Shown here piece after piece: positions 47,568 through 51,731 of a stretch of 64,000 nucleotides of DNA (position 1 is the stretch's first letter; every line of letters begins with the position of its first letter). The notes beneath the pieces are model-generated. The model did not search any database and had not been told where the DNA came from. It saw only the letters and a list, made by a program, of their open reading frames with translations. The DNA comes from Longimicrobiales bacterium (GTDB taxonomy: Bacteria; Gemmatimonadota; Gemmatimonadetes; Longimicrobiales; Gaopeijiaceae), in contig JAQWPM010000024.1 of assembly GCA_029245345.1 (NCBI GenBank), positions 62,001 to 126,000 on the forward strand, written 5' to 3'. Both the position numbers and the translations under genes were made by a program.

Positions 47568-48428
47568 TCAGTTGGCAGCCCAGAATCCTGACAGAGACTC
47601 GCCGTGCGGGCTCTCACGGAGCTTCACGAAAGCCCGGTTCCTGATCTGTCGAATGCGCTCGCGCGTCACGCCCAGTAAGGAACCGATCTCCTCGAGTGTC
47701 CTCTCTTCACCGTCGTCCAGACCGTAGTAGAGATAGAGAATCTTCCGCTCGCGTTCCGTCAGGTATTGCTCGAACATCGTCTCAAGGAAATCGCGACGTG
47801 CAATCGCCTCGACATCCATCTCAATGTCTGATGCTTCGGCACCCGAGAAACGCTCTCCGAAGCTCGCACTGTCACGATCGGAGCGATCGATGGGTGCGTC
47901 CAGGCTCAACTCAGACGCCGCTACGCGACGAAGAGCCCGGATTGTCTCCACGGGCTCCTCCATCTCGTTCGAGATTTCCTGATCGGTCGGCGCACGGCCG
48001 AGCGACTGCGTGAGCTGTGTGTTGGTCCGCGCGAGCCTTGCCAGATTCGAATTCTGGTTCAGCGGAATGCGGACGGAACGAGTCTGCTCTGCAAGCGCCT
48101 GTAGAACGGTTTGTCTGATCCACCAAACGGCGTATGAAATGAACTTCACGCCTTTGTCGGGATCGAATTTCTTAACCGCCTTGAGAAGCCCCTCATTGCC
48201 GATGCATACCAGTTCGGCGAGCCCAAGGCCGCGACCTTGGTACTTTTTCACATACGAAATGACGAAGCGCAGGTTCGCGGTTACGAGCCGTTCGGCTGCT
48301 TCTTTGTCACCCGTACGAGCGCGTCGAGCGAGTTCTCGCTCTTCGCCGGGGTCTTGAATGAGGGGGTACTTCTCTACGTCTTGTAGGTACTGATCGAATG
48401 AATCCAGGCCACGGGAAGAAGAAAACAT
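47568..48428 (-). CDS. RNA polymerase sigma factor, RpoD/SigA family (short)
   Basis: A 286-residue sigma-70 factor. I favour the ATG at 48428 (MFSSSRGLDSFDQYLQDV), preceded by GAGGAAA; a TTG at 48494 would add 22 residues without a ribosome site. Region 1.2 (SFDQYLQDVEKYPLI), 2.1-2.4 (LRFVISYVKKYQ through FISYAVWWIRQTVLQALAEQ), 3 and 4.2 (TLEEIGSLLGVTRERIRQIR) are intact. The long acidic region 1.1 is absent. Size fits either a compact primary sigma factor or a group 2 sigma factor; I cannot decide which. Confidence 0.9.
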   Translation of the reverse strand: MFSSSRGLDSFDQYLQDVEKYPLIQDPGEERELARRARTGDKEAAERLVTANLRFVISYVKKYQGRGLGLAELVCIGNEGLLKAVKKFDPDKGVKFISYAVWWIRQTVLQALAEQTRSVRIPLNQNSNLARLARTNTQLTQSLGRAPTDQEISNEMEEPVETIRALRRVAASELSLDAPIDRSDRDSASFGERFSGAEASDIEMDVEAIARRDFLETMFEQYLTERERKILYLYYGLDDGEERTLEEIGSLLGVTRERIRQIRNRAFVKLRESPHGESLSGFWAAN

Positions 48429-48560
48429 TCGTTTTTTCTTTTCCTCATCTGGGGTGTCGAACAGACCTGGCGCAGCGCAATCGACCGCAGACAACCCGCT
48501 TCAAAGCTGGGATATCACGCGGTCGACAAAGCTGCCAGGAAACATTTTAGGATGAGAGAC

Positions 48561-48615: not shown

Positions 48616-49422
48616 CTACCCCAAAAGGAACTCGGCGCGGAGGCTTTCCGTGCTCGGGCCGCCCGACGCAAAGAAGAGACAAGCACCCGGATCAGCACCT
48701 TTTCCGAGGTCGACTCTGCGGAAGAAGCCCCTGTCCACGATCTCGTCGACCCGAATCCGTTCCAGGTCGACAAGGCTGGGTCCGCCCCACTTCCGGAACA
48801 CGAACACGGGCGCGTCGCCGGTCACAATGAGCCAGCCCATGATGAAACGGGGCGCGTCAGGGAGTCGATGGGCGGCGACCGGACTTCCGCGTAGACCTCC
48901 CCCGAGAGCCATCACGTCACCCGCGAGTGCGGTCCTGACCCACGGGTGGAATCCGTCCGTGTCCGTCCAGCGCCAGGGGCTCAGGGTCGTGAAGACTCGG
49001 ATTCTCGAGGCTCCCCCGATCGTTCCGAAGACTCCGAGGAGCAGGGGGTTCGAGCAGTCACCCTCCTCGAACAGAACCTCCCTGAGAATGAAGCTTTGGC
49101 GAATCGTGATGTGAAGCGCGTTGGCGAGCCCGTACAGCCAGCGCAGAGGACTCCCCTTGGGAAGCTCCTCGACCTAGAAGGTGGATCTGTTGTCCACTGT
49201 GGTTGTGGAGATCCGGCCGACCTCGCACACCTGAGGTGCCGTCGCCTGCGCGTGGGCCCCGATCGGTGTGAGCGCCCCTACGGCCGAGGCTAGCGCCGGT
49301 CCCAGTAAAAGGATTGCAGCGACTGGATTTCTGGCGCTTTCGCCGGGCTCGGTTCTCGCGGGGATGAGGCGCTCCCGAGATCGATCGGATTGCATGGCAT
49401 CAGAGGCTCTTCTACGCTTCAT
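48616..49422 (-). pseudogene. Secreted-protein gene interrupted by an in-frame TAG
   Basis: The ATG at 49422 opens a basic N-terminus and signal peptide (VAAILLLGPALASAVGAL...AHA), then APQVCEVGRISTTTVDNRSTF, then TAG at 49174-49176. The same frame continues without a stop for 186 codons: VEELPKGSPLRWLYGLANAL, EGDCSNPLLLG, SPWRWTDTDGFHPWV, DAPVFVFRKW, ending ACLFFASGGPSTESLRAEF. No ATG begins the downstream part until about codon 88, so it is not an independent gene with a normal start; a CTG after AAGGGGAG near 49144-49156 is the only other candidate. Function unknown. Confidence 0.75.
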
Positions 49423-49463: not shown

Positions 49464-51731
49464 ATGCCGAACCGGCGCAAAGAGGCCCTCGACTACCACA
49501 CCCAGGGCCGTCCAGGGAAGATAGAAGTGGTCCCCACGAAGTCCGTGGCGACCCAGCGCGACCTTTCGCTCGCCTACTCTCCCGGCGTGGCGGAACCGTG
49601 TCTCGCGATCGCCGAGAACCCCGATGATGTCTTCAAATACACCGCCCGCGGGAACTTGGTCGCCGTCGTTTCCAACGGCACTGCGGTATTGGGCCTCGGG
49701 GATATTGGTCCGCTGGCCTCGAAACCAGTCATGGAGGGGAAGGGCGTCCTATTCAAGCGATTCGCTGGAATCGACGTGTTCGACATTGAGGTCGATTCTA
49801 GGGACCCGCAGGAAATCATCCGCTTCTGCCAGATGCTCGAGCCCACCGTTGGCGGGATCAATCTCGAGGACATTTCCGCACCTGATTGTTTTGTGATCGA
49901 GCGGACGCTCAAAGAGACGATGGACATCCCCGTCTTCCACGATGATCAGCATGGTACGGCGATTATTGCGGCCGCTGCGCTCGTGAACGGCCTCGAGATC
50001 GTCGACAAGAAGATCGGGGAAGTTACGGTCGTGTTCAGCGGCGCCGGGGCCTCGGCCCTCTCTACAGCCGAGCATTTCCAGCGCTTGGGCGTTTCCAAGA
50101 ACAACATCCTGATTTGTGACTCGAAGGGAGTGATCTACGAGGGCCGCGAAGCTGGGATAAACGAGTACAAGGCACCGTTCGCGGTTCCGACAGCAGCGAG
50201 GACCCTCGGGGACGCGCTGGTAGGGGCTGACGTCTTCATCGGCCTGTCCGTGAAGGGTGCGATGAGCCAGGACATGGTGAAGTCCATGGCCAGAGACCCC
50301 TTGATTTTTGCCCTCGCGAACCCCGACCCGGAGATCCTCCCGGAGGACGTGTATGCCGTACGGGACGACGCGATTACGGCCACGGGACGATCAGACTATC
50401 CCAATCAGGTGAACAACGTCCTCGGCTTCCCTTTCATTTTCCGGGGAGCACTCGATGTGCGCGCCCGAGGGGTCAATGCGGAGATGATGTTGGCAGCGAC
50501 ACATGCCTTGGCCGATCTGGCGCGTGCAGAGGTGCCGGACACAGTACGGGGCGCGTATGACGGATCGGAGATCAGCTTCGGGAGGGAGTATCTGATTCCG
50601 AAGCCGTTCGATGATCGCGTGTTGTTCCACGTCGCACCCGCGGTAGCAGAGGCTGCGTTGAAGACCGGCCTCGCTCGTACCGAACTCGACATGGACGAGT
50701 ATCGCGATCGGCTCAGAGCATCGCTCGGGCCGGGTCGGGAGGTCATGCGGTGGATGACCAATCGTGCGCGTCGAAAGGCGGCACGTATCGTCTTCCCGGA
50801 AGGACACAACGACAATGTGATCCGTGCGGCTACGCAGATGCTCCAGGACGGGATCTGCACTCCGGTGTTGCTCGGGCGCCCGAGCAGAATCTCCGAGAAG
50901 GCCGAGTCGATGGGTGTCGACCTGGAAGGCGTCGAGGTCATCTATGCCGCAGAGGACGAGACCAAGCGGCACGAATTCGCGGAGACCCTGTTCCAGCGAC
51001 GCGCGAGGAGCGGGCTGACGCTCGCCGAGGCGCAGTGGAATCTCTACAAGCCCATCTACTTCGCGGCTTCGATGGTCGAAGCGGGGGAGGCCGATGCGAT
51101 GGTTGCGGGGATCGAAGCCAACTACGGTGAGGTTCTCCGCCCAACGCTTCACGTGGTCGGTCCTGCCGAAGGAGTGAAGCATGTTTCCGGACTCTACATG
51201 CTGGCATTCCCGAACCGTGAGCTGCTGTTCTTTGGTGACACGACCGTCAACATCGAGCCAGACGCCGAGACGTTGAGGGATATCGCTCTTCAGACCGCGA
51301 ATTTCGTTCGCGAACTGGGGATCCAGCCCCGCGTGGCGATGGTGGGTTTCTCGAACTTCGGGTCAGCGCAGCACGAAGAGTCGAGCCGCATGGCGGAAGC
51401 GGTTCGGTTGGTCCGTGAAGCAGATCCGGATGTGGAGATCGACGGTGAAATGCAGGCAGACACTGCTGTCGATGCCATCAAGCTTCGGGACATCTATCCG
51501 TTCACGAATCTTAAGGGCCCGGCCAACGTCCTGATCTTTTCGCGGCTGTCGGCGGCGAATGCGGCTTACAAGCTGTTGGATCAGCTCGGTGGAGCCGATG
51601 CGATCGGGCCAGTGCTGCTCGGAATGGCCAAGCCCGTCCACATCCTGCAGCGTGGTTGTTCGCTCCAAGACGTGCTGAATCTGGCGACCGTGGCGTCGGT
51701 AGACTGGCAGGCGAGAAACAAGCAGATTTGA
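49464..51731 (+). CDS. maeB: NADP-dependent malic enzyme with phosphotransacetylase domain
   Basis: A 755-residue two-domain malic enzyme: oxidative decarboxylation of malate to pyruvate. N-terminal catalytic half: [48 protein letters not shown] and the NAD(P)-binding [17 protein letters not shown]. The C-terminal 330 residues from about residue 425 are a phosphotransacetylase-like regulatory domain ([19 protein letters not shown]). A ribosome site GGAG precedes the ATG. A terminator follows, then pckA. Confidence 0.96.

Follow-up and report, generated by a model that had tools for sequence, protein, structure and literature searches.

The open frame on the minus strand at 48616-49422 of the window (the whole 64,000-nucleotide stretch analysed here) is best read, with a probability of about 0.92, as a young deletion-fusion pseudogene of two tandem genes that also carries a nonsense codon. 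The earlier note, which gave no strand, had taken the frame for a long and unknown secreted protein that was split in two. Its parents are instead two separate and recognisable genes, one for an Omp85-family protein and one for a DUF4126 protein. The locus bears the disabling lesions of a pseudogene, namely an in-frame TAG and deletions of ~2,074 and 36 bases, and the corresponding genes of the congener G001 stand intact and in tandem within the same flanks, between a sigma factor and a malic enzyme. We infer that the remnant has no function.

The first open piece (49174..49422, minus strand) runs from ATG 49422 through 82 sense codons to TAG 49176-49174. It consists of a putative signal peptide and the start of an Omp85 N-terminal domain; the hydrophobic segment, ending in AHA-Q, is signal-peptide-like by eye. 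Beyond this TAG another 185 sense codons follow in frame before a second TAG at 48618-48616 (minus strand), and the first 86 codons of this part contain no ATG, GTG or TTG. With the base composition of the window, so long an open run has a chance of ~0.003 per stop, and after the TAG the GC content is 0.76 at third positions compared with 0.51 at second positions. The length of the run and its coding-like third-position GC therefore indicate that the two-piece frame is real. Strong protein homologues were found among the relatives searched for both parts. In these respects the earlier description, of a signal-peptide ORF ending at the TAG and a protein-like continuation in the same frame with no early ATG, was accurate.

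The relatives were searched with the joined translation, its stop written as X. In G001, the one congener compared, the query matched two ORFs on one contig, one of 633 aa with query residues 3-133 and one of 346 aa with query residues 124-267, and the two matches are ~2 kb apart. The gene order in G001 is sigma factor, DUF4126 protein (327 aa), Omp85-family protein (596 aa), malic enzyme and pckA, with polA, ssb and a DUF5686-like protein on the far side, and the window has the identical order save for the missing material. Both flanks are intact in the window and common to relatives: a sigma-70-type factor (47568..48494, minus strand) and a maeB-type malic enzyme (49464..51731, plus strand), which is transcribed divergently from the remnant. 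Among named records, those closest to this sigma factor come from Gemmatimonadota MAGs, one of them labelled Longimicrobiales, at 86-87% identity. The 327-aa protein of G001 matches Pfam DUF4126 (PF13548, E=3.3e-17) over a domain at residues 12-179, and the 596-aa protein matches Pfam Omp85 (PF01103, E=5e-5) with 23.4 bits, just below the 24-bit curated cut-off. An Omp85 gene also adjoins maeB in G005, G008, G017, G018, G019, G020 and G024. A Pfam scan of the window proteins, joined and split, gave nothing significant, a contig search with the second part as query found no relative, and a literature search on DUF4126 yielded nothing relevant. The homology search that the earlier note had proposed thus finds the two parts in separate genes, against a single protein, but does not divide them where the note had. 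The joint lies 44 codons past TAG 49176-49174, so the stop and the gene boundary are different things.

BLAST aligns the Omp85-family remnant (49036..49302, minus strand) with the 596-aa protein of G001 over residues 7-95 of the latter, at 62% identity. The 3' remnant of the DUF4126 gene (48616..49044, minus strand) corresponds to residues 174-324 of the 327-aa protein at 62-65% identity, the match itself spanning 49044-48628. What is left of the Omp85 gene, from its start to about codon 95, passes without a change of frame into the final ~150 codons of the DUF4126 gene. Nine bases are shared by the two matches; they form a Leu-Leu-Leu stretch (49036..49044, minus strand), and it is here that the alignments place the deletion joint, with an accuracy of a few codons. 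Both parent genes have Leu codons at this site, a short homology that makes a deletion between short matches plausible. In all, ~2,074 bases of G001 are absent from the window, and the start codons of the sigma factor and the malic enzyme are 1,027 bases apart in the window versus 3,168 in G001. At a second deletion point (48999..49000, minus strand), 12 codons (36 bases) of G001 and G006 are missing, again in frame.

In the N-terminal part, the remnant resembles the Omp85 superfamily (BamA/TamA/ShlB-like, PF01103), aligning to residues 7-95 of intact Omp85-type proteins from the same phylum and the same locus. Unlike members of the superfamily, it lacks the barrel and most of the periplasmic N-terminal region, with no Pfam Omp85 match and residues 7-95 alone aligning, and it cannot act as an Omp85 protein. 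Likewise, its C-terminal ~150 residues align with the neighbouring DUF4126 (PF13548) gene product past the DUF4126 domain, whereas the membrane domain that characterises DUF4126 proteins is almost wholly deleted; the window holds residues from about 174 on, and these give no Pfam match. The ancestral locus would have comprised an Omp85-family gene followed in tandem by a gene for a DUF4126 membrane protein, between the sigma factor and the malic enzyme. A single deletion of ~2.1 kb, probably between the short Leu-codon matches, would have removed the rest of the N-terminal periplasmic part and the whole barrel of the Omp85 protein together with the membrane part of the DUF4126 protein, leaving the joint in frame. 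The 36-base deletion and the change from Gln to TAG would be further events. Ribosomes would now halt at the TAG, and the product would be at most a short exported peptide.

The source genome is a draft of 30 contigs, 98% complete with 3.7% contamination, and in such an assembly the large deletion might be a misjoin in an organism that has both genes intact. We consider this very unlikely, since it would require that a misjoin, a second deletion and the nonsense change all fell together, and since a search of the rest of the assembly found neither the missing parts nor any further piece of the parent genes at such identity. In addition, the contig that contains the joint is 235 kb long, and the flanks on both sides are intact and syntenic.

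In the joined frame the TAG (49174..49176, minus strand) stands at codon 83, where the aligned genes of G001, G008, G020 and G024 encode Gln. A nonsense mutation had been among the alternatives listed in the earlier note, and the sense codon of the relatives bears it out. Two others, readthrough and reinitiation at a CTG, find no support in the data. TAG is an ordinary stop in the window, where it ends 15 of the 34 long ORFs and is the commonest stop; this usage led us to reject recoding of TAG, a codon that is not avoided as a stop here and whose place is taken by a sense codon in the homologues. The case for reinitiation came from the Shine-Dalgarno-like string AAGGGGAG shortly ahead of the in-frame CTG, but this stretch encodes the Omp85 motif LP(E/K)GSPLRW, and the string is not conserved, being absent from G001. 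Moreover, the second part starts within a domain of one gene and finishes in a different one, and the relatives have no stop at this site. Synthesis of the second part by programmed readthrough, recoding or reinitiation is therefore extremely improbable. Another in-frame TAG, at 17192-17190 (minus strand), was considered as a second candidate and set aside. The frame there is open on both sides of the TAG, but a normal peptidase gene follows whose likely start (MMKTP) comes after the TAG, and the part upstream seems to be open by chance.

Between the window and G001, the Omp85 remnant has a dN/dS of 0.22 and the DUF4126 remnant one of 0.16, in comparison with 0.14-0.24 for the same N-terminal region of intact homologues and 0.02-0.15 for the flanking genes; all these values are rough because dS is near saturation. 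Since the remnants resemble intact homologues in this respect, their inactivation appears recent, which also accounts for their strongly protein-like sequence. Through most of the period after the window genome and G001 separated, they would have gone on evolving as genes. Some observations count against a pseudogene: the lack of any frameshift in 268 codons, the two frame-preserving deletions and the low dN/dS could also be explained by a fused ORF that was coding for some time. The fusion might even be a working new chimeric exported protein, composed of a signal peptide and the C-terminal domain of the DUF4126 protein, with the TAG due either to a sequencing error or to a recent polymorphism among strains. 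The frame survives both deletions and is open but for one stop, its substitution pattern is gene-like, and an internal stop in an assembly is often erroneous (PMC11017572). We nevertheless regard a working chimera as improbable. The frame lacks the Omp85 barrel, the rest of the Omp85 N-terminal domain and the membrane part of the DUF4126 protein, such a fusion occurs in no relative searched, and a recent loss predicts a low dN/dS anyway. A single-base assembly error at the TAG is possible, but it would restore neither gene and would still leave a fusion without the working parts of both. We give similarly little credence to a translated chimeric exported protein that the deletion created, that selection maintained for a while, and that today is either polymorphic for the TAG or read through at it.

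A deletion-fusion pseudogene has a parallel in the gene remnants of Rickettsia, where bacterial pseudogenes arise by nonsense change and deletion (PMC2374718). As in Rickettsia, a stop and indels break the gene into short ORFs, and intact positional orthologues reveal what it was. Unlike the Rickettsia remnants, the deletion in the window fuses two neighbours in frame, so that the result resembles a single long ORF broken by one stop. The locus in itself is of little importance, but it illustrates that a deletion across two genes can leave behind what looks like a long ORF interrupted by one in-frame stop.

The window genome has an intact Omp85-family gene elsewhere (C12:401255-403027), which agrees with ordinary gene decay at the remnant. 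In the tree, this C12 gene is sister to one on contig C49 of G006 (support 100/100), in a different clade from the malic-enzyme-linked genes; the remnant groups with the Omp85 genes that lie at the maeB locus in the nearest genera, with weak support on 73 columns. No other gene shared between the surroundings of the C12 and G006 C49 genes was found in the stretches compared. The C12 type is present in 19 other genomes of this Gemmatimonadota family, 17 of which yielded maeB, and an intact Omp85 gene lies beside maeB in none of these 17. This suggests, as the likely background, that one Omp85 copy displaced another, and the malic-enzyme-linked copy likely became dispensable once the C12-type paralogue had taken over. 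The window genome and the 17 genomes with the locus would then offer a snapshot of gene displacement, with the malic-enzyme-linked Omp85 absent or broken alongside the second type.

Within the family, the C12 type and an intact malic-enzyme-linked Omp85 look mutually exclusive. In G141 (contig C45, 1613-3351), one of the 17, the Omp85 gene beside the malic enzyme is split between two frames, either as a decaying copy or through an assembly frameshift. A second DUF4126 copy was searched for in the window genome and not found. Loss of this gene seems to be tolerated elsewhere, given that several relatives lack it and that it lies in pieces at the same locus in G131 (L157, 659-1599) and G125 (L158, 872-1570). 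A search of other genomes for leftovers of Omp85 between the DUF4126 and malic enzyme genes found none. At three loci (L150, L151 and L154), an ORF that is ketoacyl-synthase-like, as judged by its translation, lies between the DUF4126 and malic enzyme genes, at the position that Omp85 occupies in other relatives.
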